Below, piece by piece: positions 20,052 through 43,370 of a stretch of DNA of 64,000 bases (positions are counted from its first letter, which is position 1; the number at the start of each line of letters is the position of its first letter). The DNA lies in assembly GCA_946811185.2 (NCBI GenBank), contig OX328097.1:6620242-6684241 (forward strand). Direction: 5' to 3'. Below the pieces are notes generated by a model. The model saw only the letters and a program-made list of their open reading frames with translations, ran no database searches and had not been told where the DNA came from. Source of the stretch: Hippopus hippopus (taxonomy: Eukaryota; Mollusca; Bivalvia; Cardiida; Cardiidae). The position numbers and the translations under genes were made by a program.

Positions 20052-21963
20052 TCACCCATTTCCAGTTTGCGTGGCTGCACCTCGAATTAGAAACTTTATC
20101 AGTCGGAACACGTCACTGTCGTCGTGTTCAAGACAGGCTTGAATAACTCCACGGACAACTGCATAAATGTTGCTATCTGTAAGTTTCCTATCTTGAAATA
20201 ATTTTTTCTTTTTCTTTTCAAAGTCCCCGTTTAGAGCTGCATTGTTGTCAATGAACAGGGATTTCAGTTCTTTTCCATGTATGTGGATGAGCTTGATCAT
20301 TGCGTCCTCAATGGTTCCACCCTTTTGGTTCGGATTTTCTGAGCCAGGAGCAGGTTTCGCCCATACAAATATTCCTCTGCTTTCCAAATCAGTCACTCCC
20401 TTACGTATAAATTCGCTTTCAACATCCTCCATAACAAATTCACGAAATAATTTCTTCGTGCCTTCTTGTTCGTCGTCGTCCAAAATGAAATATCGCTCAA
20501 GATTTAATCCAGATCAGATCTTTTCGAATCGGAGTTTGTTCCGTTCGCGACCAAACTTCAAAATATGAAGGGAGCATAAAAACCGATGAAGTCTTTTAGA
20601 TGTTAGGGTTGGAGCTACGCACTGAATAGCAGCATTCGCCAGGTCTCTGTCATGAAGGAGGATCGACTTCATCGCTGATACAAACAGTTCTTCCGACAAA
20701 TCCTCTACCAACAAAACATGAGATGCAAAGAATATAGTAGAAACGCTATGGTCAACCATGATTCTTCGTGTTCTATGTTCTCTTGCTGGTAGAAAGTCAT
20801 TTCCATGAATAGCTTTGAACTGGTGCCTACCTTCTGAAACTGGTTGTCGACGAAAAAAGAATATGTTCTCAATGTTCCGGGAGATTAGAAAAGCTGGATT
20901 GTGGCTGACCAAAATGATTGTTTTACCTTCTATATCTTTCATGACCAAATCTCTTAGACGCTCGATCATTTGTACATGCATGCCTTTTCCTGGCTCCTCT
21001 AGACAGATGGTTTTAAACTGCTTTATTGAAAGCAGAATTGAACAGATCTTGGCTTCCAAAAGACCTTCTGGACCTTCAAGTGTTATAAAGTTACCATTAT
21101 CGATTACCTGGTGCCATCTCTCTTTTCAAAGCGAATTCGACTAACTTCTGTCAAAAGATCAAACAAGTCATCCACGGCTTTTCGTTCATCTTCTCGTATG
21201 TTTTGGTTGTGCAAATACCAGAATAAGATTTCAGGATGTTTTCCCATTTTCTGGAAAAGTCTATCGCACCCCCATGAGTTCGTGGTAAATTATCAAATTT
21301 TGGGCTATTTGTCCATTGTAAAGTGATGACACTTCTCATTGGCTCAGTCATCACTACATCCTTGTCGACTGTTTCCTTTAAATACTTTTCACAGTCTGTT
21401 GTTGCATCATAGTCCCCTTCTAAAGTGTGTGAAACAAACGATTGATAAAACTCCGTATTGACTACAGAGTCGGATACAAAGCGTTCTAGACTGTGTGTTG
21501 ATATTTTGGTCTCCATCAGCGCTTGGATGGACATTCTGTGTGTCGCATCGTTCACGTCCATGGGAAACATCGTGTTTACTGGATATCCATATATGTTTTT
21601 CTTCAACAAATCCACATACACTTTGTTTTCCCCTGAGTCAATGATGAGTTTCACCTTTATTTCATTTGAACTTTCTTCAATTTCAGCTGGGACACCTACG
21701 ACGCAGGAGTAAATAGTTTTTAGTTGTCCATTATTGGTATGGCTGCTGGCATACTCACAAATCACGAAAGATGGTTTGGCTCTATCGTGACTGGTTGACA
21801 TAAACAGATTCTTTGAGGTACTAATGCACCGACGGATTGCTTCAAATGAAGATGTCTTACCAGATTTGTTCTCTCCGATGAAGAAGTACGATCCCTTGTC
21901 GAATGTGAAGGTTTGCTCGTCTTGAAAATGAACAAAATTGCGTAGGGTCAGTCTTTTCAACAT
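20052..21963 (-). pseudogene. OLD-like ATPase-TOPRIM gene, copy 1 (broken)
   Basis: It starts at the ATG complementary to 21961-21963 (MLKRLTLRNFVHF). Walker A is intact as GENKSGKT (residues 30-37), after a beta strand SYFFIG. Further on are a Walker B-like ICLEEPGKGMH, a switch histidine in VSHNPAF, and TOPRIM elements LLVEDLSEELF and YFILDDD. Against copies 2 and 3 the frame breaks at about 21255 (one base gained) and about 21110 (about four bases lost). A TGA at 20514-20516 stands where copy 3 has Cys. The natural stop is TGA at 20052. There are no introns. The TOPRIM motif has VED where copies 2 and 3 have VEG. Known OLD and GajA proteins use ATPase-regulated TOPRIM nicking of DNA. That this copy encodes no full protein is my inference, unless the indels are sequencing errors. 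Confidence 0.82.
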
Positions 21964-23227
21964 ATTCTAATTTTCGATATCAGCAAAAGAGAATTGTCTT
22001 GAACAAGAATTATGCAAGAAGTAAGAATGAATCAAACAGAAAGAATGGAAAGCATTTTAAAATAGAACAACAACAATCCTTTCTTATTGTTTATACTGGT
22101 AAACTATATCTTTTAAACATTTGTAATTCGAACCTTCATTCAGAAGCAGTATCTTCGTCTCGTTTAAATATTATTGCGTTGCGAAGTTCTTGATAGTTTT
22201 AGTAGATCTACACTCATGAGGTATGGCAAAGAATCGTGTCAACAAACTATGTTCAATCTAAATCCTTAACAAGTCAGAAATTATTGAAGAATGTATTCCT
22301 AAATGTCAGCTAACTATTGACACAAATAACAACTTTTGATACATAAAATGCGGTGTTTATTTACCCATAAGGCATCAAGTAAATTGAGTGTATATACATA
22401 TAGAAAGTGATATCTGAATAAGAATTGAGAAGGCAGGTGTAGCCTTCTAGTATCAATCCCTCATATTATTCAGTTCATGAAAGACATCAGAAGGTTTTTG
22501 TCCGATTATCTCATTGAATATCTGACGGTTTTAGTCAAAATCAAAGCGCATGTTTGGCACGTCTTTATCTTAAAAAACTAATCTGTAAAAACCTGTAGGC
22601 TTTACGCCCAAAAGTTTATATCTTTTATATCTAAATCTGTACTAATTACTGTACCCTTTTGGTTTGTGTGTTGAAGACGGACATGAAGATATGAATAAAG
22701 AACAGGAATTGGAGTGGAAAAAAATAACATAGAAAAGAAAAGACAAACCAAGACAGACAATTCTTCAAATATATTGATAGACGGATAAACTAGTTGTAGG
22801 GTTAGGTTTTCTTAAATCTCTACGTTGTCAACCCTTTTTTAGCATCGGATAATACTATATGAAATGTATATTTTCTGCCCACTGGACATCTTCCAGACAA
22901 CTACAACTTTCAAGGACTTTTGGTCGGGGTTTCTCACAAAATGTTGGACAGCTTAGATCCAAGAGCACACAGCTTTCTAGCCCAAAATTATAATAATTGG
23001 TATGTTGACAAAATTACCTACGTAAATATGGCGTCAAGGTGTTGAGTTACTTACCTGTGGCGTCAAGATGTTGAGTTACTCTTACCTATTTGAAAGTCTC
23101 AGCTGAAGGATTATATCATTGTAGAATGATTTTAAACTGGGTCATCCATTTGTGAAACATAAAACGTATGCGAAAACTTAGATGAAAATCGTGAAAACTA
23201 TTATTTTCTTCTTTTGTTATCAAAACC
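21964..23227. other. Region upstream of OLD-like copy 1
   Basis: AT-rich, no promoter motif that I can defend, and no repeat family recognised. Confidence 0.45.
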
Positions 23228-23229
23228 TT

Positions 23230-23308
23230 TCACGGACCTCTCTAGACAAGCATACAAAGATCAGTTTGCATGTCCTTGCAGTTTGATCATAGTATGCAAT
23301 CTTTAACC
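23230..23308. mobile_element. P1 core fragment
   Basis: caaagatcagtttgcatgtc / cttgcagtttgatc hairpin inside acctctctagac. Arms lost. Abuts the next P2 copy. Confidence 0.45.
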
Positions 23309-23533
23309 CTTTACCAGACGGCAAAATTGTTATCTTGTCCAAATTGAAAGTACTTCTAGACGACAACTGATTTGTAACTCATTGATCATAGGATTTGTCT
23401 TTACGAAAGGTAGAAAATTTCAGGAAAAAGACAAAATACTAGAGACCAGCATTATGTGTTTTCTCTCACAATATTTTCAAGGTCTCTCCACTCTGGGTCG
23501 TAAAACATGGGATAATGTGGTAAAGGGTTAAGA
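23303..23533. mobile_element. P2 hairpin MITE, TTAA at both ends
   Basis: TTAACCCTTTACCAGACGGC at the left and gtggtaaagggttaa at the right, with aaatactagagaccagcatt at the centre. Confidence 0.8.
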
Positions 23534-23597
23534 ACAGATTTACTGTACCCGTTTAAACTAGACAAAAATTATTTTACACTGATTGCTACTATTTATT

Positions 23598-23875
23598 GCC
23601 TGCTTCATTTAATCTGACCTAGGTCAGGTCATCATTTACATAAATTAGAATTCTATTTTTTCCCTCGATATCACACAAGGCTGCCTTCGGCCTATGTCCC
23701 GAGTGGTCACGGAAATATTTCATACGATATGCGCGAATTAAGGTGCTTACTTATGTATATATATCATATATCTTTTCGTGTATATAACTTCTCGAATAAT
23801 AGTCGGAGTTCTATTTATATGTCTACTTAAAAATTCAGCATAAAGGTCGGGATCAGGTTAAAGAGAATTGGCAAT
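23598..23875. mobile_element. L-type MITE (forward of an inverted pair)
   Basis: Left end cttcatttaatctgacctag, right end gatcaggttaaagaga, forming inverted termini. Internal words ctgccttcggcctatgtccc and aataatagtcggagttc. The same element in reverse complement is at 25.83 kb, and a third copy is at 56.0 kb. Confidence 0.75.
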
Positions 23876-24051
23876 ATAAGTTTATTTCACCAGTGTAAAG
23901 GGGGAAAAAAACATACCTTATGGTGTGCATTTCTGTGTATAGGAAAACGAAACTACTTATAAAACGCAGAGTACAGTGTATAATTTTTTATTTATTATAT
24001 TTCAATACATTTACTTAGAAGTCAATCACGGTGAAATACATGTAACATAAT

Positions 24052-24216
24052 ATTTTACCAAACAATATCGAGTTTTAACAACTGTAAGAATATGGCTTTA
24101 GAAACAATTGTGAAAAAATGTTTCTTACCCTTTCAAAGACAAATCCCATTGGTTGAGTCGTCTACAATGTCTTTATATTTGTACAAGTCAAGATTTTCTC
24201 GATTGGTAAAAAGTTA
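24052..24216. mobile_element. P2 hairpin MITE, internally deleted
   Basis: ttttaccaaacaatatcgag at the left, ttggtaaaaagttaag at the right. The central palindrome is largely missing. Confidence 0.6.
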
Positions 24217-24230
24217 AGAACAGAACGGTT

Positions 24231-24470
24231 TTAACCCTTTACCAAACTATTTCGAGTTTTTATGACCCGCAAAACAACGGCACATGAAAATGTTTCGGAA
24301 AAAAGTGGAAAATGTTGTTAACCAGCATTTTTATCCCTTTTTTCTACAGTTTTTTCTACCTTTTTTGTAAGATGAATTTAAAAATTTGACCAACTTTAAC
24401 TTTATCCGATGCAAATTCTTTAACTTGGATCAGTTTAAACTTTTGTCGCCGTTTATTTGAGGGTTGAAAG
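24231..24470. mobile_element. P2 hairpin MITE
   Basis: TTAACCCTTTACCAAACTAT at the left, gttgttaaccagcattttta at the centre, and a weak right end (tttgagggttg). Confidence 0.7.
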
Positions 24471-24594
24471 AGATAAATATAGAGAAGACGACAGAAGACA
24501 CAAGTACAATTTTGTTATAGGTGCAATTGTGCCCAAATTTATAGACTTGACAGAACATGAGACTGACAAGAAAAACGAAATTCTCTTGGGCATA

Positions 24595-25131
24595 ATATCG
24601 GATACATAGAGGATATTTGTATTTTTCGGCGAAATTTATTTCATCGAGTGAACATCATCGGTAATATTTCCACGACTGGCGCAACCACGGGTGACAATAT
24701 TACCTAGGAAGTGCAAGAGATATTATAAATAAAGATCTTTAACATGTTCTATTTATTTCATGCTTCTAATCCCTTTTTGTTGGGACTTTCGTCAAAATCC
24801 AGTACATTAAATTTTTTGTTTTCGGTAATTCCCCGTTGCGTACCCACATAAGACCACATTACAAGATTACGTATTCTAAAGCGCTAGATACTCGTATGTA
24901 GGGTAAAAGCGCGTAAATTACGTCCTTTTTCTCTGGTTGAATTTCACGCGCTGTTTACTTGGGTAACTAGTGTGCGGGAACTACTGTTTCGCCTTTAATG
25001 GAAGAGACAATATAAAATCAGTATTTTTCACTGGTCGTAACCATGAAATATCAATACATAATCCAACATGATTTCTCGATAAACTACTGAAAAGCATGAA
25101 ACAACTTATAATAGTCCCGATATGACAGAGA
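24595..25131. repeat. Direct duplicate R, copy 1, with palindrome
   Basis: Shares with 25235-25730 the words atttatttcatcgagtgaac then atcatcggtaatattt, gtaactagtg.gcgggaac and ctggtcgtaaccatgaaata. Its left part is a palindrome around cacgactggcgcaaccacgg. It is possibly one transposon family present twice in tandem. Confidence 0.75.
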
Positions 25132-25234
25132 TGCATTAAGACCCTTTTGCCAGAGTTTTGGTCACATGTCTGGACATGAAATATAGAGTTCGGTTGGACA
25201 TGATACTACAGGAAAATAGGAAAATAGATAGAGG

Positions 25235-25730
25235 ATAATTGTTTTTTACGTTGAAAGATAGAAATTTATTTCATCGAGTGAACATCATCGGTAATATTTT
25301 CACGAGTGGCGCAGCCACGAGGGAAAATATTACCGATGATGTTCAAGGTTGAAATAAATTTCGATCTTACACCGAAAAAAAACCCAAATATTCTATGAAT
25401 TTCATGCTTTTAACCAGTACAGTTCTTTTTGGTTATTCCCCGTGGCGTACCCCCTCCGCATAGCAACGCATTACAATATTACGTCAAGCGCGAGAAATGT
25501 AAGGTAAATTACGTCATATTTCCATCTGGTTGTGAGGCACGGGCATTTTTCCTAGGTAACTAGTGCGCGGGAACAACTGTTGCCGCCTTCAATTGAAGAG
25601 TTAGAATATAAAGATCGGTATTTTTACTGGTCGTAACCATGAAATATCGAAAAACATTTCACCGATATTTCTCGATAACCTACCGGAAAGCATGAAATAA
25701 AGTAATATACTTATATTCCCGATATGACAC
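25235..25730. repeat. Direct duplicate R, copy 2, with palindrome
   Basis: Palindrome gaacatcatcggtaatattt / aaatattaccgatgatgttc around cacgagtggcgcagccacga. The following 340 bases match copy 1 with small indels. An H1 remnant (gatgcattaagacccttttg) lies between the two copies at about 25130. Confidence 0.75.
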
Positions 25731-25832
25731 AAAGTTTGATCACCTACATAAAATTTACCAAGTTTTGTATTGATATCGATGATGTAATTATTCGCTACCT
25801 GGAAATGTGTTCTTCTTTCAATAGACTTAAGA

Positions 25833-26100
25833 AACATGTATTGCCTACTTCATTTAACCTGATCCTTACCGTTATACTGAATATATAGGTAGGTATATAA
25901 CCAGAACTCCGACTATTATTCGGAAAGTTATATATACTCGGGAAGGTACAGGTAAGCAATTCAATTCGTGTATACGGTGCGAAATATTTCCATGATCATT
26001 CGGGACATATGTGGAAGGCAGCTCCGTGTGATGCCGAAGGTAAAAATAGAATTTTAATTTATGTAAATGATGTTGAACCGGGTCAGGTTAAATGAAGTAA
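25833..26100. mobile_element. L-type MITE (reverse of an inverted pair)
   Basis: cttcatttaacctgatcctt at the left and gggtcaggttaaatgaagta at the right. Internal words are reverse complements of those at 23598-23875 (gggacatatgtggaaggcag). Confidence 0.75.
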
Positions 26101-27369
26101 GTAATACGTAGTGCCATTTAACAAAGTCTTAAACGTAATCATGTTTAATGTAGGCATAAACTCAGTGAAGCGATCACGGCAAGTTTTGGCCGATCGACAA
26201 TTACTAGATTTGGCCGATTGCTGTCGATCAAATATCATGTGGAAGTTTCTAATTTGTTTTGAAAATGGCAACTAAAATGTATCATCTGGTGGGGCTGCAT
26301 CTATTGGCGCAGCACGAACCAATGTACCTGTACGCATGCTCGGATGCAAAATACCCCTGCCCTATAAAAAAATTCATAGACTAGCTGGAAATATGTATTG
26401 TAGTGGTATTCCGTGAATTATTTGATAAAGGATTTTTTTCACGAAGAAAACATGTACTATTGTTCAAAATCATTATCTGAATTTGTACCGGCTAACTCCT
26501 TTTTCTCTGCTCTTTGAAAACACTGGAAGAGGTATAAGGTTCTGAGAAAAATGTTAAAGCTATGGCAAACTACAAAACCTGTTATGCGAAAGAAACTACT
26601 TGCTGTGCGATATATGATACTAAAATATTTAGATTTTTACCAGTTTGTACAGTCTTGGTTCCCGATGTTGCATGTTCTTCCGAATTGTATAAACAACAAC
26701 AAAAATTAAAAATAAAGAAAAAAAGAAAAAAACCTAAATAATATGGAGTTACTCGGTACTCACATTTTATCGTATTAATGTTTAATTAAAGCATTTCAAA
26801 CATTGTGTAATCTCTTAAAAGGTTCCTTATATTAATTATACCTCTGGAAGTGGATGGTAGATTGTGCTTTGTAGATTTTTCAAATGACAAAAAAAAAAAA
26901 ATCTTTAAATATCCAACTTAAACAAAAAGAAATGCAGATAAATTGAAACAGAGTTCCTATTGGAATGGGATTCGTTAAATATTTGTTACAGCCAAAAAGT
27001 CTACAAAAGCCACTTTCTTTGGAGTACCAGAGGCTAAGAAATAAGATAGTAATCAAAAAGAATAAAATAGAATTGTAAAATAAAAACATCAATCTCGACA
27101 TTAGTAAAACTAAATATACAGATTGAAAGAATTGTAGTTGTTCAACTTACATGTACTTTTGATCACAGTTTTTTCGTCTAACTTCATGCAAAATACATCT
27201 TTAAATTTAGATAAATCTAGGCTTTTATTTTATACAACAATTGGAATTCAAAAATAATAATTAATTTAAAAGGACAGTGTTTGCCTTTTGGGTTGTAAGT
27301 TATGTGACGATGTATAGAGGATACAGATACAGTAAGAAACTCATCCTCAGTGACGCTTAGTTCTTTAAC
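26101..27369. other. AT-rich intergenic stretch
   Basis: No gene or recognised repeat. It contains a short partial repeat of ttggccgat around 26190-26220. Confidence 0.45.
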
Positions 27370-27538
27370 GTACTAGGTTTATTTGAAAGTCACCCGGAAT
27401 TCTCGGTTTAACGTCTCATCCGAAAGACTATTAGTAACTGTTTAGTTCGCCAGCTGTGAGGCTCGAACCAACGCCCTCAAGTGTCTCGGCTTTTGTTTAC
27501 AAGGCTCACGTCCTGCCACTTGAGCTATTTGGACTGAT
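27370..27538 (-). mobile_element. tRNA-headed SINE
   Basis: On the minus strand: box A tagctcaagtggcagg, then box B gttggttcgagcctcac about 45 bases later, followed by a non-tRNA body (aacagttactaatagtcttt, gaattccgggtgac). The spacing fits an internal Pol III promoter. Confidence 0.7.
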
Positions 27539-28219
27539 ACCATCAAGACTCTACAAATGGACAGGGAGGGTCAAAGTCAGACACGTTCAGCTCTGTTAGT
27601 ACCCCAAAATGGGTATTTTCTCGTTATTCCATTTTCAAGAGTACTTTCAGTCTTGTACTTAATTTCTGACCACCCAGAAAGAGAAATAAATGATGTTAAC
27701 CTTGGATATTATTATATAGTCATCATTTAGCATTTCTCGTATTAAAGAAGCATTTTAGCTGTGTGTGTGGGGGGGGGGGTTGCTATTGTTGTTGTTTTAG
27801 TCATGGCACGGGATCGTTTTAAAGTGAAAGGCACACTTTGTAGTCCCTGTCATGTTATCATTAGACTGCAAATAGTGATCTATGATTTTAAACGATTATC
27901 TGAGCTTTGACGATATTTAAATGACATGAATATTTAGTATCCTTTTTCCCATTTTATCATGAACTCAGAGAAAAAGTCTCACCTGAATCTCTGAATTTAA
28001 AGCCTCCCATTGGGCCCAACAACAACCCATTTGATGTCTTTCAAATGAGAAGTCCTCCCCCTTTGGCTTATTAGCTGCTTGTTTCCTTTTTTAAGATACT
28101 AGTAAATAATGGAAATGTCAACATCAAGCAGCATTATTTAGTCAGCTAAAGGCCTACTCATTGAGTTTTTTAACCAAGCAGTCCAATTTTCCAGACTCAA
28201 AACCATACTTGAAATTAAA
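27539..28219. other. Intergenic stretch with G-run
   Basis: A gtgtgtgt(g)n tract lies at 27758-27779. Otherwise nothing recognised. Confidence 0.5.
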
Positions 28220-28450
28220 TGGTTCCTAATCGGTGAGAGCAAGATAAGGCTGCACAAAAACTGCAATCTGAGCTTGAATTTAAATTGTCTGTACTCTCGG
28301 GCAAAACCATCGTAACATTACTTGTTTCTACTTGTGGAATATGTATTTTTGAAATTTTTCATCGTTCTGTAGGTAAAAAGGATAAAAACAACTGGTAAAA
28401 GTAGTCCGTGCCCTGAACCCCAAACCCCATGAAAATAGTCACGGAGTCAC

Positions 28451-28612
28451 CTTAGCCTGCTAACAACGACTCGAGGAACTTTTGCAGACCCTATAGGCCA
28501 AGATCAGACTGCACAAAACGTGCAGTCTGATCTTGAATCTACACTGTCCGATAAGAAAATATTTTTCCTGCAAAAAGAACTTTGAAATAGCAGAATTTGG
28601 GTTTTTTGGCAA
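28451..28612. mobile_element. P1 hairpin MITE
   Basis: gatcagactgcacaaaacgt / acgtgcagtctgatcttg centre with ctacactgtccgataag. Preceded at 28225-28290 by a weaker P1-like core. Confidence 0.7.
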
Positions 28613-28834
28613 AACAAGGTCTTTAGAACAGTTATTGACAAATTGCTTTTATTGGCTTGCTGTAAGTCCATTTGCCTGTTTTCCTGAACATGAGCTACTT
28701 ACTTTACATAGACCGCTATGACAATATACTTGAATTGAACATTATGTGACCATGGACATGTACATCGTCTCCTAGACTGATAGTATGTCATGTTTGCGTT
28801 TCATTTTCTTCAACTTAAAGGTCCAGTAAAGACC

Positions 28835-29157
28835 AAAATATCAAAGCAGGTGTCATAATAAATTTGAATTTAAATCATACCATTCAAAAGTATGGAAAAT
28901 ATTGTGGAGATGACAGTCTGTTCTCGTAAGGTCGGGCCATATGTTAGTCGCTGACAGAAAAAAAGAATTTTTAAAAATAAAGCAGAATGTAAACAAACGA
29001 CACAGCTACCTGGCAGGTTTTAACGTAGTTTTGAAATTAATTTTTCTACCAGCGAGTAACTCTCAGACCGACCCGACATTGACAGATTGTCATCTTCACA
29101 ATAATTTCCATACTTTTAAATGGTTGTATATAATTTCAAATGCATTTAAACACCCGC
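28835..29157. mobile_element. M-type MITE with about 45-bp ends
   Basis: Ends aaatcataccattcaaaagt then atggaaa and tttccatacttttaaatggt are inverted. Internal arms tggcaggttttaac / gaaattaatttttctaccag. A second copy is at 44125-44457. Confidence 0.7.
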
Positions 29158-29199
29158 CTTATTTTACATTTGGCCTTTATGGTTACTTTCAGCGCTTTA

Positions 29200-30790: not shown

Positions 30791-30794
30791 GTTT

Positions 30795-30882
30795 ATGCTA
30801 AGAAAACAAAAAACAAAAAAAAATAAATAAATAAAATAAAAATAAAAAAAAAATAAAAATAAAAATAAAAATAAAAAAAACT
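30795..30882. repeat. A-rich (AAAT)n-like simple repeat
   Basis: aaataaataaataaaataaa-type units, about 90 bp. Confidence 0.9.
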
Positions 30883-30964
30883 TGCTTTGTACATGTATGT
30901 CTCATATTTTCAATCTTCATGCAAGTCTTTAAGACTTATGGGATATTCATTTTTTCCTAATTAA

Positions 30965-31780
30965 ATAAATCAGTTTTGGCTTTCATTTGGTGAAGTATTA
31001 AGATGCAGCGGTCATGTCTTCAATGCTTTATGCTTGAGAAAAGTGGATGGGGTAGTTTGATATGATTTCAGCTTCTAGAACTAAATTGTAAATATCTTAC
31101 ATTTGAAGCTGCAATCAATATTCATTCAGTCCTTGCAGTTAAATGATACAGACAATTTATAAGAGCATTCTCCAGCAATGTAGTTATAATCACTTTTAAG
31201 TCGTACCTAAATTTCGCTTATTTTGTAAGCTCCAACTTTGCGAAAACACAAAATTGTTTTATCGTTTTATGGAAAACTAAGATATGTTGATATCATATAC
31301 TGGATATACTAGACATTCCAAAACTGTGAGGAATTCGCTGTGGGATGAACAACACTTGGGTTATCTGCCCTTGAAAAAAATGAAAAATGCTAATTTTTCT
31401 CATGTTCTGAAAATGAGTATACTTATGGTATATTTCAAAGGATTAAACTCACTCAGACCTAAATTAAATATTTGTCAGGACTAGTTATAGAATAAGTCAT
31501 GCCATGGTGACCTTGACCCTTTTCAAGGTCAAAGTGAGATCCAGAGCTCTTACTAATGACTGATAATTCTCTTACTAGGGTTGAATTCACAAAATTTTCA
31601 TGTCACAATTTAGGATTTTACATTTACAGGTTATAAAAAGTTTGTAACTTGATGGTAAGGTTTAATTATTTATTTATTTGTGGCATGATACTGAAATACA
31701 GCTTGGTGACCTTGACCTTTTCTTAATGGTGACAATGAGACTCAGAGCTATATTCCAGAAATTTTAATTCTTCTCTTAAG
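30965..31780. repeat. Foldback arm, left (about 0.8 kb)
   Basis: The reverse complement of most of this arm is found at about 33655-34460. Shared words: attctccagcaatgtagtta, cgtacctaaatttcgcttat, tttatcgttttatggaaaac, ggattaaactcac. The arm also carries tgaccttga words at 31508 and 31707. Confidence 0.8.
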
Positions 31781-32790
31781 GGGTTAATATATTTCAATTC
31801 AACTTTATCTTGCGTACACGCCTGTCAGAAGTAAGTATACAGTTAATGTAGGCTTGGTGACCTTGACCTTTTTCAATGTCAAAATGCCACCTACAAGCAT
31901 AATCCATGCACATAAATTCTCCTAATCGGCTCAAACAATCATCTCTCAAGTCAAAATACTGCTAATGCACGGATGATGTACATGTATGAATACATATTCT
32001 ATTTATTACTAGGGTATGAAGGCATTACTGACCCACAGCTTGATGACTTTGACATTTTGCCAATCTCATAGTAAGACCGAGAATGCCTTTTTATTTCTAT
32101 TGATAAAAGGATCTTGTTTTTGGCTGATATGATCTCTCTACATCTTTTGAGATATTGCTAGTACATGTCTGTTCAATATTGAAGCTGCATCAGCAATTTC
32201 TTCTGCACTGAATGACAGATTGATGATAAAGTATATTAAGCGTTTGTTGAAAGGCAATCGTGCTTTGTCAAACAGTTCGATGAAAAACAAAACCATTGAT
32301 CGTAGGGTTATAAATAGGAATATAACAAAAAAAAAAAAAAAAAAAGAATGTTGCCAAAGCAAAATTACAAGGAAATAAGTACAATATTCAAATATTTATT
32401 GAAATGCAAGTATGAGGATGAACAGTCTAAATTTTCTAAACTTATCCTGAAAGTTGTGTTAAAGTACCCCTAGAAGTAATCAATATCATATAAGTCCAAT
32501 TGAATTATTTTTTTTTTTTTTTTTTTTTTATTTTTTTTAATTTTTAAATAACAGGTTGACTGCTGAGATCAGCAGGCTCTGTTATGACACCGTGATATAC
32601 TTTATGACTAGAACTGATTAGATAAGATAATAAAATGACCTTATAACACTCATCTGAATATACATAGACATGATTATGTCGTTGTGTAAGCGAATTGGCC
32701 GTGAGGCTATGAAAATTATTATATATACTACTTAAAGTTTTCAATTCAAAGAACCAATTATTTCAGACATGATTTTCCTGTTTGCATACC
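31781..32790. other. Foldback interior, left part
   Basis: AT-rich, with a poly-A run at 32325-32345 and a poly-T run at 32508-32541. No coding support. A further ggtgaccttgacctt copy is at 31857. Confidence 0.5.
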
Positions 32791-32794
32791 ATAC

Positions 32795-33190
32795 TGCCAA
32801 CTTGTCACTTTACAGATGAGCCTAGCTACTGCATAAACCGAACGAACAGGGTATGAGGAATGCTGATGGTGAGATTTCATGTCGCCATCATTGCTGTACA
32901 TGACCCTTATGGAGGCTGTTCGATTTTTGTCCGCGGTTGGAATAAGCTGTGATGAGCTTATTGCTGTTGACCATTGCACAATGACTGCCGAACAGTATTG
33001 AAATGAGGTTCATGATACTCAGGCAGGATTGTATTCTATTGCAGGTTATGGGATGGTACTCATGGGCGATAAAGCTCGTCCCCATATTACTTGTGTCGTG
33101 CAAGAGTACATGAGAAAAGGTGGTATTGCATGTTTGGACTGGCCAGTCCAATCCCCTCACCACGATCCCACCAAGCATTCGTGTAATGGG
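32795..33190 (+). pseudogene. Decayed Tc1-like transposase
   Basis: Reading across frames: FTDEPSYCINRTNR, then AVGISCDELIAVDH, TMTAEQY, then DKARPHITCVVQEYM and LDWPVQSPHHDP. These are the Tc1 landmarks FSDES.F, the strand before MTAQRY, DNARPH (second catalytic Asp) and WP.QSPDLNPIEH, in which the final catalytic Glu is lost. It lies inside the foldback and may be its former transposase or a separate insertion. Confidence 0.75.
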
Positions 33191-33654
33191 AACAGAAATA
33201 TATCACATACATGGTTTAAATCCTAAACTGGTTTGCATCAGCAGCTTTTTGGACAAGTTATGAAATTTACAAATTTTATTAAATAAGCATTTTTAAATTG
33301 CCACTCAGCTGAATTTCTAAAATCTGTGTCAAATACAGTAGAAAAGACAACAAGGGACTTGATATACATAATTACATGTGTAGAAATCACTTATTGAACT
33401 GTTTAAAACAAAATGGTAACATTATTCCACCCCTACAACCTATGCATTTGAATATTCTTTGTGCTTAGCAAAATTTGAGAAATATGCGAGGTGAATGACA
33501 TAAAGATTAACATGATGAGTATTGAATTTCAACTAAGATGCAATAAAAAAAAATAGGTGTAAAAAAAAGTTTTGTATTTGTAAAAGGTAATCGTAAAATT
33601 CAAAGTATTTCTATTCATATTTGAATACGTACGGAAATTATTAAACACACAAGA

Positions 33655-34470
33655 AGAAAATTAGAGTTTCTGGAATAGCGCTCTGGGTCTCATTGTGATA
33701 GTGAAAAGAAGGTTAAAGTCAGCAAGCGGTAATTCGGCATCAAACCTTACCATCAGGTTTAAAAATTTCTCGTATCCTGTAAACGAAAAATCCTAAATTG
33801 CGACTTAACAACTTGTGAATTCAACCCCACTTGGAGAATTACAGTCATAGATTAGAGCTCTGGGTCTCAATTTGACCTTGAAAAAGGTCAAGGTGACCAT
33901 GCTATGACTAATTCTATACCTAGCCCTGACGAACATCTACATAGTTTAGGTTTAAGTGAGTTTAATCCTCCGAAATATACTGTAAGTATGCTCAGATTCA
34001 TAACATGTGAAAAATCAGCATTTTTCTCTTTTCAAAGGTAGATTGCTCTATTGTTGTTCACAGCAAAATCCTCGCAATTTTGGAATGTCTACTATGTCTA
34101 GAATATAATATCAACGTATCTTAGTTTTCCATAAAACGATAAAACAATGTTGTGGTTTTTCGCAAAGTTGGAGATGACAAAATAAGCGAAATTTAGGTAC
34201 GACTTAAAAGTGATAATAACTACATTGCTGGAGAATGATGTTTGAAAAAAAAATGTCTGCATCATTTACACCCTCTTATAGTGTAAGCAACTATAAGGAA
34301 TGAATGAATATTGATTGCATCTTCAAATGTAAGATATTTGCAATTTAGTCCTAGAGGCTGAAATCAAATCAAATTATCCGTCCACTTTTCTTTAGCATAT
34401 AGCACTGAAGACATGGCCGCTGCATCTTAATACCTCACAAAATGAAAGCGAATGCATAATAGTACAAAAT
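33655..34470. repeat. Foldback arm, right (about 0.8 kb)
   Basis: Inverted partner of 30965-31780: gttttccataaaacgataaa, ataagcgaaatttaggtacg, taactacattgctggagaat. The outer end (gccgctgcatcttaatacct) matches the left arm's outer end. Confidence 0.8.
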
Positions 34471-35001
34471 CGGCAAATTTTGGAAAAAATCTATCCTAGC
34501 CCAAAAAAGGCTCTTATGGACACCCGTCCTTTGCCTCCCTTAAAATGTGGACGAATGCTTGTTGCTTGCATCTCTCACTGGCAAGCTACAGTTTTGATGT
34601 CTTTATGGATCCACGCAATATCTAAGGCTAGCAATCCAGATACTGCTCTCTGTCTAAAGAGCTTATCAGCAAATAAAAAAATATTGCAAATAAAATTATA
34701 CTTTTTTAGTGTTATTTTTCTATTACCAGGCAAAAATTCTTATTTATAAAATAAAGTCATCCATCATTACCTATAGTTATCAAAATATCCCTTAAATTTG
34801 CAGAATTTTAGCTTTCTGCTATAACGAATTAAGAGAATTTGCTGGGTAGTATCTTTTACACTTTTTCAAGAAAAAATGTTTTTACCTTATCCATTACGTT
34901 TAATTTATTTTCATGAGATTAGAATGTATTATATATATTTTTTACCTTTCAGTTGCATTTTAAACCAGAACAAATTATAAGAGCAGAAGCCAAACATATA
35001 T

Positions 35002-35256
35002 CAGCCATGCTCTTTGACAAGGGGGCTTGATGCATTTGCATGATGTTTCGGCTCATGTCAGCCTGCATAGTCTGCACAGGCTGACACGGGTCGAACCTCT
35101 TTACTATTTGTAAATTTTCTGCATGTCCAAGACCACTCTACCTTCAGATGCAGTTAGACTAAATGGATTTAATGGATCTATAATTATTTGATAGCGTGGT
35201 GGGGAAAATGCACCACGGAGATGCAATTATCCCTCCAATTCAGAGGATGGCTCATA
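35002..35256. mobile_element. H1 hairpin MITE
   Basis: cagccatgctctttgacaag at the left, gaggatggctcat at the right. Centre cagcctgcatagtctgcaca then ggctgacacgggtcgaac. Absent from the matching place in unit B, so it inserted after the duplication. Confidence 0.8.
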
Positions 35257-36522
35257 TGTAAAAACTTTTTTGTAAAAATTATCCTTTTCAGTTATCGACT
35301 CCATATAAGTGAACGTTTCGGCCGAGATTCCCTCATATATTTGTTTAATTTCAATGTCCATTAATCAGATAGTGAAGCAATGAATAAACATTAACCACGC
35401 AATTACAGTGGCATGTTGGAAAGTTTGAAATAAAGTTACAAAAGTTTATCAGCAGGATATTCACGAATGCTGATTAGCCGTTTCAGTCTGTTAGGGTCTT
35501 TTGGCAGTCGGAAAAAAACTAAAATTCTGGTAGGCCCTGAACTTTTTACTCGAAAAATGGCACTAAAAGTAGGAAGACTGGGTCTTAACGTTTAAGAACA
35601 TGCAAAAAAAAAAAGTCATTTTTGACCAAATTGTCTTCTAAGCCTTTTTTCAATCAATGGGCTATGTAGGAGCTTTACATTTTATCACTTTAAAAGTGGG
35701 TTTTTTGTGAAACAAGATATTCTAAACTACATTTACAATAAACAGGATGTCCCATTAAAGTTTATAACATTTTAAAACTTTATAATTGTTTTTAAAGGAT
35801 TAAACATGTTATATAAGATAATACAACAGCCTTGTATATATAGCAATGTTGAATTTGATTGGCATATTACCCATGAATACACTACACAATCCACAGATAA
35901 TCATGCAACATGCGTTCAATTTAACGTACTTTTCTGACATAACGTCGTCGAAACACATTCTGAAGTTTCAGTGTTCAAGTGCCCAATTTCTCATCTACCA
36001 TTCTAAAAATCGTTCTACTAACATTGATAGCAACGAGTTTTCTCTCGGTTTGCTGTTTTGACATTTCTATGGAAACTGCGGTTGGATGAATTCACACATA
36101 GCTAGTTGACGATGCCATCTTGAAAAACTGTTAATGTCAAATGATACCGTTTCCTTGTAAATATCAACTAAATAGTTCTCGTAGTTTCAGCGGCAAAAAA
36201 AGCTGTGATAAAGCTCTACAACAAATGATGATATTAAATCTAATTAAAATAGTCAGAGGTATTATGAGGCACCCTGTGTGCATAATTATATGTGCTAGAT
36301 AATATCACAGGCAACTTATAAAACAAATTTTTAAAAAATCTGAAATACAATTTGAAAATGCCTCAAGTGTAAAAAGGAAACATCACACCACAGATCAGTT
36401 TGGTATAATCCTACCTTAAAACCGTAAACATTTGTCTGCCAGACGCTTATTTTGAAATTGAAAGTATGAACAGATAGACACATGGCATTCTGGGTCGTTC
36501 TAAATGACAAATGAGGTCACTT

Positions 36523-38433
36523 TCACTTTTGCGTGTCTGGACCTTTGACAAGAAACTTCATAAGTCGGAAAACGTCGCTGTCCACGTGATTAAGACATGA
36601 TCCAATTACTCCACGGACTACGTTAGCAACGTTGTCATCTGTAAGGTCCCTATCTTCAAACAACTTTTTATCATCCTTTTCTCTATATTTCCAGTTTAGG
36701 ACTACATGATTGTCCATGAATAAGTTCTTCAATTCTTCGCCGACTCTGTTAATAAGCATTATTAGAGCGTCCTCGATAGTTCAACCCCTTTGGTTTGGAT
36801 TTTCTTAGCCGGGAGGCGGTTTTGCCCACACAAATATTCCTTTGCCTTCCAAAACAGTAACTCCATCAAGTTTGAATTCGCCTTCAAGATTCTCGAAATC
36901 AAATTCTCGAAAGAATTTGGTTGTACTCGTACTTTTTTTGCTGTCGAGGATTGCATCATAATCCAACATGAAATATCGATCTAGAGCTAGTGCTGTACAG
37001 ATTCTTTCGAATCGGAGTTTGTTTCGTTGGCCATTTAAAGGCAAAACTTGAAGGGAAGATAAGAACCGATAAAGTGCTTTGACATTTAGATCTGATTTCG
37101 CAGATTTAAGAACTTCATCTGCCAACTCTTTGTCATCGAGAAGGATCGATTTAACCGCTGATATGAACCGATCGTCCGATCTACCCTCAACCAGCAAAAC
37201 ACGAGTTGCAAAAAATATTGTTAAAACATTGTAGTCAGCCGATATTCTCCGTGATCTGTGTTCATTTTTTGGAAGAATATCATTTCCATGAATGGCTCTA
37301 AATAGGGGTCTACCGTCCTGATCTGAAGTACGACGGAAAAAGAAGATCTTCTCAATGTTACAGGTATTCAAAAAGGCCGGTACGTGGGTAATCATGATAA
37401 CTGTCTTGTTTTGTCCTTCTTTTAGGGCCAAATCTCTGAGACGCTCAATCATTTGTGTATGCATGCCCTTTCCAGGTTCCTCCAGACATATGGTTTTTAA
37501 CTGCTTTAATGAAAGCAGAATTGCACAGATTTGGGCTTCCAAGAGACCTTTTGGAGCCTTTTCAAGGGTTACAACGTTACCATTATCAATTACCTGTAGA
37601 ATGTCCTTTCTGTTCTCAAAGCGAAGCCGACTGTTTTCGGTTAGGAAATTAAAAACAGTATCCACGGTGTTTCGTTCTTCGTCGCTTATAGTTTGGTTGT
37701 CCAAATACCATGTAATGATGTCAGAATTAAATCGCATTGCATATTCGAATCTGTCATCGCCCTCTGGCGTTCGTGATAAAATGTCAAATTTCGGGCTGTT
37801 GCTCCATTGTGCAACACTGACACTTCTCATTGGTTCAGTAATAACAACCTCCTTATCAATTGTTTGTCTTAGATACGTTTCACAGTGCGTCTCTGCGACA
37901 ATGTCTATTTGCACGGCTTCTGAGATGATAGACTGATAGAATTCTGTGTTGATAATATCATCGAAGACAAACTCTTTAAGACTTTCAATTGATATTTGGG
38001 TCCCCAAAAGTCTTTCGACGGGCCCACCGTATTTTGCATCCTCAACTGGAAACATTATGTTTACCGGGTATCCCTGTCTGTTTTTCTTTACCAAATCTAC
38101 ATATATTTTGCTTTCCTTTGTTTTATCCTTCGGCTTTACAATGACAATTGTCACGTTTATTTCATTTTTATCGGGAACAGAAACAACACAAGAGTAAATA
38201 GTAGTGCAGTGTTTGTATGTGTCAGAATTGCTGGCATACTCACAAATCACGTACGATGGTTCGGCTTTATCGTGACTTGTTGACATGAAAAAATTCTTTG
38301 AGGTACTCATGCAGCGTCGGACTGCTTCAAAAGTACAACTTTTTCCAGATCTGTTTCCCCCAATGAAGAAGTACGATCAAAGGTTTGTTCGTTTCGAAAA
38401 TGTACGAAATTTTGTCAGTTTACGCAGCATGTT
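36523..38433 (-). pseudogene. OLD-like ATPase-TOPRIM gene, copy 2 (broken)
   Basis: The start codon is the ATG near 38430 (MLRKLT). Against copy 3 about five bases are missing just after this, and against copy 1 about 13 bases are missing before the Walker A segment, which is still readable as SYFFIGGNRSGKS. From 38310 a long open frame follows: signature-like APKGLLEAQ, Walker B ICLEEPGKGMH, switch His in MITHVPAF, TOPRIM LLVEGRSDDRF and FMLDYDAILD. Two in-frame stops, TAA at 36805-36807 (Leu codon TTA in copy 3) and TGA at 36781-36783 (Gly codon), split off the last 85 or so codons, which end with TGA at 36523. It is closely related to copy 3. An AT/GT microsatellite lies about 75 bp upstream of the start. 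Confidence 0.85.
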
Positions 38434-38504
38434 CAATTGTTCTGAATCTGGAGAGCACAATAAAAAGCAAGAAAGATTGCTTTACCTAGATATCAAGTAC
38501 AGGG

Positions 38505-38664
<160 letters not shown>

Positions 38665-40510
38665 AAGTGCCTGTTTGTTTGTGAATAAAGCCATGTTAGC
38701 TAAGTAATTGGGTTTTTTTTGTATTATTTTATGAAATCTCATTTTCGTTTCTTCGTTTGTACACTCACCACGATTCTTTTCACAACTGCTAAACTATGAT
38801 AGCTGCATTGGCTTTTTTTTATATGCCCTTATTCTTAAGTGCTGAGACAAAACCTTTATCTGTATGTCTCACATTCTTTGATGGTGATATGTCTTCAAGA
38901 TTTCTGGATACTTCTCTTGATCGTTATATAGATATTTTAGTTTACCTTTCGGACGTCAAAGTAATCTACAGAATATGTAGATAGCTTCTTTGCACAACCC
39001 ATACCTAGGGTCTAATGTCTGGGGCTGTTTTGAAAGTTTGGATTCAGGGTACATTGTTCATAGCTGAAAACAATTCTTAAAGGAATTAAAACAGACCAAA
39101 AGCTTATTCACTTATGCCAAATTTGCTTTCCTTGAGATAAGGACGAATGCATTACTTGCATTCTTCACAGTCCATTCCTGACAGAAAAGCTACATTTTGA
39201 TGTCTCCATAAATCCACGATGCTTAAAGCTTAAAGGAATTATCAGCAAAGTCAAGCAAAAGTTCTTTATCTTATCTTATACTTTTTACTCATTTTCATGA
39301 AATTGGAATGTATCTTACATTTCTTTCGTTTGTATTTTAAACCAGAATAATAGATAAGAATAGCAAAACATAAATATCACAGTTCGGTACAAGATTTTCC
39401 TTTCCATCTGTCGGCTTTATCAAGGGAAAGTTTCGGCCTAGATTCTCTCAGATCAGTGTTCAATGTACATAATCAATAATTAACAAGTGAAACAAAAATG
39501 ACCACTGTCCACGCAATTAGAATGGTATCTGGGAAAGTTTGAGTTATCAGCAGGATATTCATGCTGATTAGGTCGTCTAGTCTGTTAAGTCCTTTTTGTC
39601 ATCAAAAACTTATATTTTGATAGGCCCTAAACCTGGTACACAAAAAAGTACTAAATGTTGGAATGTATTCAAAATGATTATTTTGTAGGAAGATACCATG
39701 TGAAAATTTAAGAATACGAAAGAAAGTCTTTTTTTGGCAAAATGGCAAAAACCCTTTTGACAATCAACGGGCGACATTTTTAGCTTCTGTCTTGACCATT
39801 TTAAATGTGTCTGCTGTGAGAAAAGATATTAAAATCTAATTTTAAAAAATAGAAGGTGTCCCATAATGTGTATTACCATGTTAAATGTTTACGGTGGTTA
39901 TAAGGATTAAAGATGCTAATTGAACATTAACAAATTATTCAAATTGTCTTTAATTTGCATATTTCCCCCGAGTACACTACAAAATCTTACAAAGTCATGA
40001 AGGTCTATTACAGCATAAACATTTACTATTGAAAGTCCGTTTCTGGCTTAAGGACCTCGCAACGCGTTCTTATGTTGTGAATCTTTTCTTAACAAGTTTC
40101 AGTATTCATGGGCCCTTTTTTTCTTATATAGTTTAAAAAATCGTTCTATTTTACATCGTTACCAACAGTTTTCTCTCGGTTTGCTATTCTGCCATTCTTT
40201 GAAAACTGCGGTGAAAACTGCAGTTGGACAAAAAATGGATGTTTAAAACTTCACAATCAAATCTAGTTGACGACGCCATCGTGAAAACAAGTAATGTTAA
40301 AAGATACCGTTCACTCGTAAGCATCGACTTCTTTTTTTCAGCATCTCAGCTGCACAAATCTGTATTCAACCATTGTCAATTAGGTACATAAAGGATAATA
40401 ATCTACCTGCAAATAATAAGTAGACATCTCATTAAACGATATTATTGGACACCCACAGGACATAAAATAAATATGCTAAGTCAATATCATATATTTTTTA
40501 CAAAACAGAT

Positions 40511-40513
<3 letters not shown>

Positions 40514-40549
<36 letters not shown>
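40514..40549. repeat. (AC)n microsatellite
   Basis: About 36 bp of ac dinucleotides. Confidence 0.95.
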
Positions 40550-40553
<4 letters not shown>

Positions 40554-40638
40554 GTGCAATTTGAGAATGTCCGAAATCTGAGGAGGACACACATCGCTAT
40601 AAGTCAGTTTTTTTACCGTAAAAGGTTGAACATTCTTG

Positions 40639-40898
40639 AATGAGAAGCTCACTGGTTAGCGTATCTGACTCGTGACCTGATGGTTGCGGGTTTGATTTCT
40701 GGTTGCAGCAAACTTTCTTTCTGGCGATTTTTCGCCTATCACCTCACAGGTATGTGAGAAAAGCAATCAGTGGCTTGGAAAGAAAGTTGTGTCAGTCCTG
40801 GTGTGAGAAAGCTAGGAAACGAATTCGTAGGAGCACTGGCCGCCGTGATATGACTCAGCTGTTAAAACGGCGTTAAACTCCAATACAAACAAACAAGA
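40639..40898 (+). mobile_element. tRNA-headed SINE with 11-bp target duplication
   Basis: Box A agctcactggttagcg and box B-like ttgcgggtttgattt, a body, and the tail taaaacggcgttaaactcca followed by atacaaacaaacaa. The 11-mer gaacattcttg stands on both sides (40628-40638 and 40899-40909), a clear target-site duplication. It interrupts the flank of the OLD-like C-terminal relic. The aacggcgttaaac tail word recurs, reversed, in the SINE at 52.57 kb. Confidence 0.88.
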
Positions 40899-41046
40899 GA
40901 ACATTCTTGGCGTAATTCTACCTGGGAATCGTATGCAGTTGCCTTCATGATGCTTATTTTAAATTTGAAAATGTAAAGAGAGAGATGCGTGGTTTTCACA
41001 ATCATCTATACATTAGAGATGATGTTATTTCCTCTGGTTAATACGG

Positions 41047-41197
41047 ACCTGCATGTAGAACAAGGAACTTCGACAATCGAACCACGTCGCTGTCCTTGTG
41101 ATTAAGACATAAACGAATTAGTCCAAGAATTGCTTCTGCAACGTTGTCATCTGTGAAGTACCTATCTTCAAACAAATTTATATCGTTTTCCTCTTAA
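41047..41197 (-). pseudogene. OLD-like gene, C-terminal scrap (copy 4)
   Basis: This segment matches the 3' end of copy 3 (41450-41600): aacaaggaacttcgacaatc, gctgtccttgtgattaagac, and gcaacgttgtcatctgtgaa then gtacctatcttcaaacaa. Only about 50 C-terminal codons remain. The match continues into the 3' flank (40550-41046 versus 41215-41447), so it is a partial tandem duplicate of gene end plus downstream DNA. Confidence 0.85.
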
Positions 41198-41442
41198 AAC
41201 GGATTCTTTTGAAAATAAATATCAAGTGTCATTTGAGAATGTCCAGAATGTATAGAGGAAACATCACGCAATAAACCAGTCGTGTTTTATTCTTTCATCA
41301 CAAAAGATTGACAATTCTTGATATAATTCTTCCTTGAAATTGTATACAGTTCTCTTCCGGACACTTGTTTGAATTTCAAACAATTATGTGAAAAACTCAC
41401 GGTTTTCAGAATCTTTTACATGTAAGAGATGAGGTGACTTCC

Positions 41443-41448
41443 TTTATT
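41443..41448 (-). terminator. Possible poly(A) signal at stop of copy 3
   Basis: The minus strand reads TAAATAAAGG, so AATAAA begins at the last base of the TAA stop. Copies 2 and 4 lack this exact hexamer at the same place. Confidence 0.35.
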
Positions 41449-43331
41449 TACGTAACTGGACCTCGAACAAGAAACTTCAACAGTCGAAACACATCGCTGT
41501 CCATGTGATTAAGACAAGAACGAATAACTGCAAGAACTACTTCAGCAACGTTGTCGTCTGTGAGGTCCCTATCTTCAAACAACTTTTTATGATTGTTCTC
41601 TATACATTCCCAGTTAAGGACTGAATGGTTGACTGTGAATAAGTTCTTCAATTCCTCTCCGACTGTGTTAATAAGCTGTATCAGCGCATCCTCGATAGTT
41701 CCACCCATTTGGTTTGGAATTTCTAAGCCAAGAGACGGTTTGGTCCAAACAAATATTCCTTCGCCTTCTAAAACATTTACCCCATTAAGTCTAAATTGGC
41801 CTTCAAGATACTCGAGACCAAAGTCACGAAAGAATCTGATTGTACTCGTACTTCTTGTGCTGTCGAGTATTGCATCATAATCCAACATGAAATATCGCTC
41901 AAGAGATAATGCTGTACAGATCTTTTCGAATCGGAGTTTGTTTTGGTGGCCATTCAAAGGCAAAACCTGAAGGGAAGATAAGAACCGATATAGTGCGTCG
42001 ACATTTAGGTCTAACCTGGTAGTTATAAGAATAGCATTTGCCAATTTTCTGTCATCGAGAAGGATCGATTTCACGGCTGATATGAACCGTTCGTCCGATC
42101 TACCCTCAACTAGCAAAACACGAGTTGCAAAAAATATTGTTGAAAGACTATAATCAGCCGATATTCTCCGTGATCTGTGTTCATTACTTGGAAGAATATC
42201 ACTTCCATGAATTGCTCTAAATAGGGGTCTACCATCCTGATCTGACCGACGGAAAAAGAAGATCTTCTCAACGTTCCAGGTATTTAAAAAGGCTGGTACG
42301 TGGGTTATCATGATAACTGTCTTGTTTTGTCCTTTTTTCAGGGCCAAATCTCTGAGTCGCTCAATCATTTGTGTATGCATGCCCTTTCCAGGTTCCTCCA
42401 TACAAATGGTTTTGAACTGCTTTATTGAAAACAGAATTGCGCAGATTTGGGCTTCTAAGAGACCTTCTGGCGCCTTTTCAAGTGTAACAACGTTACCGTT
42501 AACGATTACCTTTAGGACGTCTTCTCTGTTCTCAAAGCTAAGGCGACTGTTGTCTGTTAGAACTTTAAAAATATCATCCACGGTGTTTCGTTCTTCGTCG
42601 CTTATAGTCTGGTTGTCCAAATACCATGTTATGATGTTTGAATTGAATCGCATTGAATATGCGAATATGCCCTCGGGCGTTCGTGATAAAATATTGAATT
42701 TTGTGCTGTTACTCCATTGTGCAACATTGACACCTCTCATTGGTTCAGTGATCACAACCTCCTTATCAATTGTTTGTCTTAGATACGTTTCACAGTGCGT
42801 CTCTGCGACAATGTCTCTTTGCACGGTTTCTGAGATGAATGACTGATAGAATTCGGTTTTGATAATATTATCGAAGACAAACTCTTTTAGACTTTCAATT
42901 GATATTTGGATCCCCAAAAGTCTTCCGATGGGTCCACCGTATTTGGCGTCCTCAAATGGAAACATTATGTTTACCGGGTATCCCTGTCTGTTTTTCTTTA
43001 CCAAATCTATATATATTTTGCTTTCCTTTGTTTTTTCCTTCGGCTTTATAATGACAATTTTCACGTTTATTTCATTTTTATCGGGAACAGAAACAACACA
43101 AGTGTAAATAGTAGTGCAGTGTTTGTCTGTGTCCGAATTGCTGACATACTTACAAATCACGTACGATGGTTTGGCTTTATCGTGACATGTTGACATGAAG
43201 AAATTCTTTGAGGTACTCATGCAACGTCGGACTGCCTCAAAAGTACAACTTTTTCCAGATCCTCCGTTGAAATCAAAGGTTTGTTTCTTTGGAAAATGTA
43301 CAAAATTTTGTATTGTCAGTTTTCTCAGCAT
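41448..43331 (-). CDS. OLD-like ATPase-TOPRIM protein, copy 3 (627 aa)
   Basis: Single uninterrupted minus-strand ORF with ATG at 43331 and TAA at 41448. The N-terminal ABC/SMC-like ATPase half starts MLRKLTIQNFVHF. Signature-like APEGLLEAQ is at 287-295, Walker B-like TICMEEP at 307-314 and a switch His at 344 (MITHVPAF). A TOPRIM domain follows: LLVEG at 406-410 (Glu 409) and the D-x-D pair in FMLDYD (484-486). The order and spacing are those of OLD-family nucleases and GajA, which cut DNA under ATPase control. Oddity: relative to copy 1 nine residues are missing, so Walker A is reduced to NGGSGKS (22-28) without the leading Gly or preceding strand. ATP binding may be impaired. No intron is seen. 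No partner helicase is nearby. An AATAAA (complement of 41443-41448) overlaps the stop. Expression is unknown, and it could be a young pseudogene. Confidence 0.85.
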   Translation of the reverse strand: MLRKLTIQNFVHFPKKQTFDFNGGSGKSCTFEAVRRCMSTSKNFFMSTCHDKAKPSYVICKYVSNSDTDKHCTTIYTCVVSVPDKNEINVKIVIIKPKEKTKESKIYIDLVKKNRQGYPVNIMFPFEDAKYGGPIGRLLGIQISIESLKEFVFDNIIKTEFYQSFISETVQRDIVAETHCETYLRQTIDKEVVITEPMRGVNVAQWSNSTKFNILSRTPEGIFAYSMRFNSNIITWYLDNQTISDEERNTVDDIFKVLTDNSRLSFENREDVLKVIVNGNVVTLEKAPEGLLEAQICAILFSIKQFKTICMEEPGKGMHTQMIERLRDLALKKGQNKTVIMITHVPAFLNTWNVEKIFFFRRSDQDGRPLFRAIHGSDILPSNEHRSRRISADYSLSTIFFATRVLLVEGRSDERFISAVKSILLDDRKLANAILITTRLDLNVDALYRFLSSLQVLPLNGHQNKLRFEKICTALSLERYFMLDYDAILDSTRSTSTIRFFRDFGLEYLEGQFRLNGVNVLEGEGIFVWTKPSLGLEIPNQMGGTIEDALIQLINTVGEELKNLFTVNHSVLNWECIENNHKKLFEDRDLTDDNVAEVVLAVIRSCLNHMDSDVFRLLKFLVRGPVT

Positions 43332-43370
43332 GTTGAATTGTTCTGAATCTGGAGAGAAAAAATATCAGAT

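Follow-up and report, generated by a model that had tools for sequence, protein, structure and literature searches.

OLD-like ATPase-TOPRIM genes of the bivalve Hippopus hippopus: decayed copies of a family under purifying selection

In OLD proteins an ATPase head is coupled to a TOPRIM nuclease that works with two metals. Those of characterised function are said to come from bacteria or phages, to which one archaeal class has been added, and an archaeal OLD, Cran1 of clade U11, serves the cell cycle, according to the part of PMC12796447 available to us. Here we analyse a stretch of 64,000 nucleotides from the bivalve Hippopus hippopus (assembly GCA_946811185.2, contig OX328097.1, forward-strand positions 6,620,242 to 6,684,241; C2:6620242-6684241 in our contig naming, and the window throughout this text), which holds several OLD genes on its minus strand: a broken copy 1 (20052-21963), a copy 2 broken at both ends (36523-38430), a copy 3 that is an open reading frame (ORF) of 627 amino acids with intact TOPRIM motifs (41448-43331), and a scrap that duplicates the C-terminal end of the gene (41042-41194). 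A preliminary description of the window had read them as three copies plus a scrap encoding an ABC-type ATPase and, behind it, a TOPRIM domain, and this is what the ORFs and their motifs bear out.

OLD as such is a known kind of protein, and the expanded animal branch is not described among the literature matches listed, which, for the open-licence literature, include no paper on an animal OLD family; the same literature gave no paper pairing TOPRIM with bivalv*. The accessible part of PMC11249213 has none of the whole words OLD, TOPRIM or Gabija, that of PMC10568477 has no 'eukaryot', and that of PMC13142454 has TIR domains as its subject. The interpretation we favour, with confidence that is moderate, is that these genes belong to an OLD branch long resident in animals, bivalve judging by its relatives and acquired long ago, whose products would be ATP-gated two-metal DNA nucleases, most likely used for cutting foreign or aberrant DNA.

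Domain order, active sites and predicted fold

With Class 2 OLD enzymes and GajA the animal proteins share an N-terminal ABC ATPase and a C-terminal OLD TOPRIM domain with its glutamate, an acidic residue at the position four further on (E+4), the DxD and a later xxE, whereas they differ by the metal-B threonine, which is replaced in most rows, by the animal host and by forming a gene family. Class 1 OLDs (phage P2 Old, Thermus OLD and standalone OLDs) have the same layout, and Thermus OLD is the best sequence match of solved structure, but the animal proteins come in many copies, exceed the 528 residues of the Thermus chain by about 100 and are set apart by a long stem. Four plasmid GajA proteins of Gabija share 24-26% identity with the query over 30-38% of its length. 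A Gabija system was rejected for the window, since tblastn of three GajB proteins against it gave no match at E up to 1.

The OLD/GajA-like layout claimed in the preliminary description is supported by Pfam, by a family profile, by PADLOC and by structure comparison. The product of copy 3, for which an OLD-type TOPRIM profile match had been anticipated, passes the cut-off of the Pfam profile OLD-like_TOPRIM, PF20469 (25.2 against 23.2 bits), with copy 2 at 22.9 and copy 1 at 16.7 bits; on the ATPase side, cut-offs are passed by AAA_21 for copy 2 and by AAA_23 for copy 1. PF20469 is over cut-off in six of six relatives and, in a second set, in nine of nine, as well as in two of three other copies from the same genome (loci L014 and L018), L022 being just below (22.6). 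Profile A1, built from 20 family sequences, matched Thermus OLD (6p74, E 9.5e-13) and GajA (E about 1e-9) among PDB sequences. In PADLOC the Old model reached 2e-22 for protein P0020 and GajA 1.9e-18 for P0006, and GajA was the best model for P0003, P0005, P0006 and P0026. The AlphaFold2 model of P0002 (predicted local distance difference test score 81.6, predicted template-modelling score 0.81) gave as first Foldseek matches TsOLD of Thermus (1.1e-14), GajA and the OLD of retron-Eco8. On these sequence and fold likenesses the family is filed as a member of the OLD family, of no assigned class.

Seven motif checks were applied to 117 family proteins, P0001 included, and all seven were passed by 97; the 20 that miss at least one are mostly short or partial rows. 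On the ATPase side G34 and K35 are kept in 104 of 104 filled rows (13 of the 117 being unfilled there), the first P-loop glycine in 103 of 103 filled rows, E319 in 116/116 and the switch histidine H351 in 116/117. The TOPRIM sites are kept equally well (E417 116/117, D494 117/117, D496 116/117), as is the last glutamate of the TxE motif (110 of 110 filled rows). Since both sites are kept in intact members, ATP-gated DNA cutting would be their most likely activity. We propose that intact members may form homo-oligomers, as predicted, in which ATP binding or hydrolysis at the SMC/Rad50-like head would gate the C-terminal TOPRIM nuclease, and that the latter would cut DNA using two metal ions.

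Several results weigh against this interpretation. The motif check was lenient, as its Walker A test needs GK[ST] only, so that even copy 3 passes it, and 0 of 3 window copies are canonical, every one of them being damaged. The metal-B residues of Class 2 OLDs (the glutamate at +4 and the threonine and glutamate of TxE) are called absolutely conserved in the part of PMC6755086 available; judged by that conservation the animal family fails, as the +4 position is aspartate in 115/117 proteins and glutamate in 2/117, and the threonine survives in only 21 of the 110 filled rows. Copy 3 alone, searched against PDB sequences, found Thermus OLD only, at E 0.064; PADLOC ranked AriAB first for P0002, mad3 next and Old behind them; zero NCBIfam models reached their own cut-off; and the Foldseek TM-scores are modest, at 0.3-0.5. 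The VIA-align rows cover approximately residues 1-430, are led by SMC/Rad50 heads and include PtuA ATPases, and none of its 50 rows is an OLD or GajA entry, an absence that we do not weigh against membership because one domain can fill the list. Finally, the plasmid and phage OLD matches listed have 21-29% identity over less than half of the query.

Damaged window copies and their family in the same genome

Copy 1 is spread over at least two frames (21963-21151 and 21059-20514), followed by an additional in-frame stop. The N terminus of copy 2 is frame-shifted, with a stop immediately ahead of the P-loop strand, and the copy has a stop at 36805 and one further in-frame stop beyond it. Copy 3 is open, as had been described, and is not canonical: compared with relatives, 8-9 residues of the strand preceding the P-loop and of the P-loop start are gone, so that the GxxxxGK[ST] pattern is lost. 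The motifs reported earlier are confirmed at their places. GENKSGKT, EEPGKGMH and the switch histidine stand in copy 1, where the LLVEG motif reads LLVED, with aspartate at the place of the usual glycine; EEPGKGMH, LLVEG and LDYD are present in copies 2 and 3. Copies 1 and 2 have a whole Walker A motif, which in copy 2 comes after an in-frame stop. All three copies were recovered, with the coding part free of introns, by tblastn with each of five relatives, and the scrap, which is part of a 292-nt repeat (40903-41194 and 41314-41601, 74% identical), by three of the five. The nearest relative of copy 1 is P0005 (65-73%, in three pieces), and that of copy 2 outside the window is P0002 (69%).

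The copies had been called intronless, which stands for the coding part and does not extend upstream, where a 3' splice-site-like T-rich tract ending in CCAG lies 17 nt 5' of the ATG of copy 3 (43349-43366, minus strand), with a corresponding splice-acceptor-like CTCTCCAG, found by eye, 17 nt 5' of the ATG of copy 2 (38448-38465, minus strand). A T-rich tract with CAG just 5' of the ATG occurs in 6 of 13 copies tested, a count that leaves the copy 2 site aside, compared with 105 among the window's 2536 ATGs; as the copies are related to one another, this excess is suggestive only. It suggests, and would fit, the end of a putative intron in the 5' untranslated region.

A search of the whole assembly (1.07 Gb, 34 contigs) with P0002 gave 26 matches that merge into 16 loci and a scrap, a number that is a lower bound for large families. 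Nine loci form a 0.2-Mb cluster around the window on a 77-Mb contig, one lies at C2:56.36 Mb, and the others are on C13 (two), C1 (one), C15 (two) and C7 (one); the amplification proposed for this family is borne out. Outside the window ten loci have an open frame over the whole gene, 635-693 codons when counted from the family start, and eight of these keep all the checked motif sites; in L013 the switch histidine is glutamine, and in L023 the second aspartate of DxD is asparagine.

Selection on the copies can be read from codon comparisons. The ratio of nonsynonymous to synonymous substitution rates (dN/dS) is 0.31 (0.23-0.41) between copies 2 and 3, 0.31 and 0.35 between copy 1 and copies 2 and 3, and 0.29 (L014-L015) to 0.61 (L022-L023) in six further pairs from the same genome, L019-L020 having 0.39; over all nine pairs the range is 0.29-0.61. 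This shows long purifying selection on the copies, despite the decay in the window. It would be possible to regard the window copies as mere pseudogenes of no further interest, as none of the three is canonical, but two things speak against it, a dN/dS well below 1 between copies and the presence of ten open copies at other places of the genome, and we consider this quite improbable; perhaps it is true for the window and not for the family. The window copies look like decayed members of a constrained family. Three loci on C15 and C7 (L022, L023 and L024) constitute a further, divergent OLD branch, whose stem measures 1.67 changes per site and whose dN/dS is higher, at 0.59-0.61.

The distribution of loci also bears on bacterial contamination or a very recent transfer, which the prokaryotic type of the domains might bring to mind. 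The loci are spread over five contigs of 46-82 Mb, their GC content is within the range of the window, nothing near was met in the prokaryotic collections searched, and there are deep splits among the animal rows of our trees; we hold this explanation to be vanishingly improbable. That the genes reside in an animal genome, as first described, is further supported by well-supported pairs with a second source (P0006-L021 and P0007-L018).

How the copies were born is best seen in the flanks of copies 2 and 3. Two pieces of the DNA downstream of copy 2 (35608-36169, minus strand) recur downstream of copy 3, at 39719-39986 and 40094-40329, with 67-69% identity, which indicates a duplicated unit larger than the gene. 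The two copies share flanks as in tandem duplication, and in the repeat comparison of the window no repeat could be seen to enclose a gene copy; the earlier suggestion of carriage by a mobile element thus finds no support.

The window has other repeats and ORFs as well. A long inverted repeat (30976-34452; arms of about 820 nt, 78% identical, with a spacer of about 1.8 kb) sits between copies 1 and 2 and contains neither, and a 75-bp tandem repeat of 7.9 copies (4469-5059) lies mostly inside a 200-codon minus-strand ORF. Dispersed repeat pieces at 45022-47690, 51231-51878 and 61269-62635, 80-91% identical, are likely a mobile-element family. A minus-strand ORF of 295 amino acids (63013-63900) resembles by eye the end of a retrotransposon protein, with nothing significant in Pfam. 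Elsewhere, an OLD gene fragment at C2:6722107 has near it a 417-amino-acid ORF, L025, that by eye resembles a retroelement integrase. An Rfam scan of the window gave no match.

Animal relatives, trees and a possible donor

Three protein searches gave 26, 15 and 102 matches. The profile search missed members already found by another protein search and has no bearing on absence from other animal groups. The named animal relatives come from oysters and a pearl oyster, namely Saccostrea echinata, S. cucullata, Magallana/Crassostrea gigas, C. angulata and Pinctada imbricata; Pinctada proteins have been named automatically, for example 'OLD protein-like TOPRIM domain-containing protein'. The contigs of P0002, P0003 and P0005 have the same reported length (2,378,544) and are thus probably a single one.

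Two trees were made. Tree 1 holds 26 of the 116 family proteins besides P0001 and six of ten prokaryote-like matches (P0032-P0034 and P0037 omitted), with L009 unused; tree 2 omits four oyster-type rows, four long-branch prokaryotic rows and L016. In both, the animal rows constitute one side of a branch (support 100/99 in tree 1 and 100/100 in tree 2), with a stem of 1.2-1.4 changes per site to the prokaryotic and phage OLDs and with deep splits among the animal rows themselves. They are separate from all prokaryotic rows, on long branches and sparse sampling; the prokaryote-like P0127 falls weakly on the animal side in tree 1 (77/83). P0006 pairs with L021 and P0007 with L018 (100/100 each), P0002 groups with copies 2 and 3 (100/95), and P0008 sits beside L019 and L020, though which partner is nearest is unsure (86/62). 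Copy 1 joins P0005 at 99/95 in tree 1 and at 83/39 after L014 and L015 are added. Leaving aside the exact partner of copy 1, such cross-source pairs point to inheritance by descent between two animals.

The donor side is far less clear. Pattern scans of prokaryotic genomes with A1 and with P0036 found nothing near, though these scans are blunt, as the prokaryote-like P0036 missed its own kin. The plasmid matches listed are one of one for P0002, the best 15 of 134 for P0006 and the best 15 of 101 for P0042; of phage matches, six of six are listed for P0042, and P0002 had no match to phages. No record among the plasmid and phage matches listed covers 80% of the query. As no close prokaryotic donor was found, any transfer would probably be ancient, and the long prokaryotic branches of the trees make the donor not placeable. 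The horizontal acquisition suggested in the preliminary description was not seen directly, given the length of the stem and the lack of a near match in the prokaryotic and viral collections searched; the trees place the animal clade on one side with full support and identify no bacterial donor branch. Transfer from bacteria is nevertheless plausible on the sequences, and an ancient acquisition, with an OLD gene taken up long ago by an ancestor of these animals, would be our best guess for the origin.

The gene may instead have come by way of a giant eukaryotic DNA virus and not straight from a bacterium, which would suit the best viral structural matches, the OLD-like endonucleases of Catovirus and Terrestrivirus (E 1e-16), whose fold is alike by prediction. 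However, these viral proteins are 12% identical in those alignments, and an A1 pattern scan of viral contigs confirmed no relative, and we give such a route a slim chance.

Possible role of the bivalve OLD proteins

Once acquired, the family would have been kept under purifying selection, with copies born by tandem duplication while others die. Both the turnover of copies and the part that prokaryotic relatives play in defence suggest foreign DNA as the target, which is unproven for this family: its intact members may perform cell-autonomous cutting of foreign or aberrant DNA, such as that of a DNA virus, a mobile element or free ends. Housekeeping genome maintenance without any defence, in which the proteins act on the cell's own DNA ends or recombination intermediates like Rad50/SMC or Cran1, would agree with the likeness of the ATPase part to Rad50/SMC heads, with the well-supported orthologue pairs between two sources and with the cell-cycle service of Cran1 reported in the available part of PMC12796447. 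Cran1 is similar in being an OLD-family ATPase kept vertically in a cellular lineage, but it is archaeal and acts in the cell cycle, and it is likened here by description and not by sequence. About 16 loci, several of them dead, are unlike what is generally known of single-copy repair genes, and we regard a housekeeping role as unlikely compared with the cutting of foreign or aberrant DNA by a long-resident OLD branch.

A hydrophobic stretch of 19 residues (mean hydropathy above 1.6) is found in the last 60 residues of 34 of the 117 family proteins (P0027, P0053, P0062, P0068, P0069, P0071, P0072, P0075, P0078-P0087, P0089, P0091, P0093-P0095, P0099, P0109-P0112, P0114-P0117, P0119 and P0123), and close to the C terminus in most of 16 tails inspected. 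It is absent from 15 of 15 prokaryotic OLDs, from all ten open copies of the H. hippopus genome (L024 being nearest, at 1.54) and from the three window copies. Many of the 34 carriers are near-copies; after dereplication 9 of 52 rows have the tail, with at least four changes.

We may tentatively suggest that the bivalve OLD nucleases constitute a large family of rapid turnover, derived long ago from prokaryotes or viruses, which serves as a cell-autonomous DNA-cutting arm of immunity and whose oyster branch gained a C-terminal membrane anchor. Oysters suffer from a herpesvirus, as the available part of PMC7848083 has it, and the family would offer a concrete gene set for testing in these animals. 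If this proposal is true, the anchor would tie an ATP-gated DNA nuclease to a membrane, which none of the 15 prokaryotic OLDs in the comparison shows, and an animal branch that is maintained and expanded would bring an ATP-gated nuclease into the set of bacterial immune modules acquired by animals.

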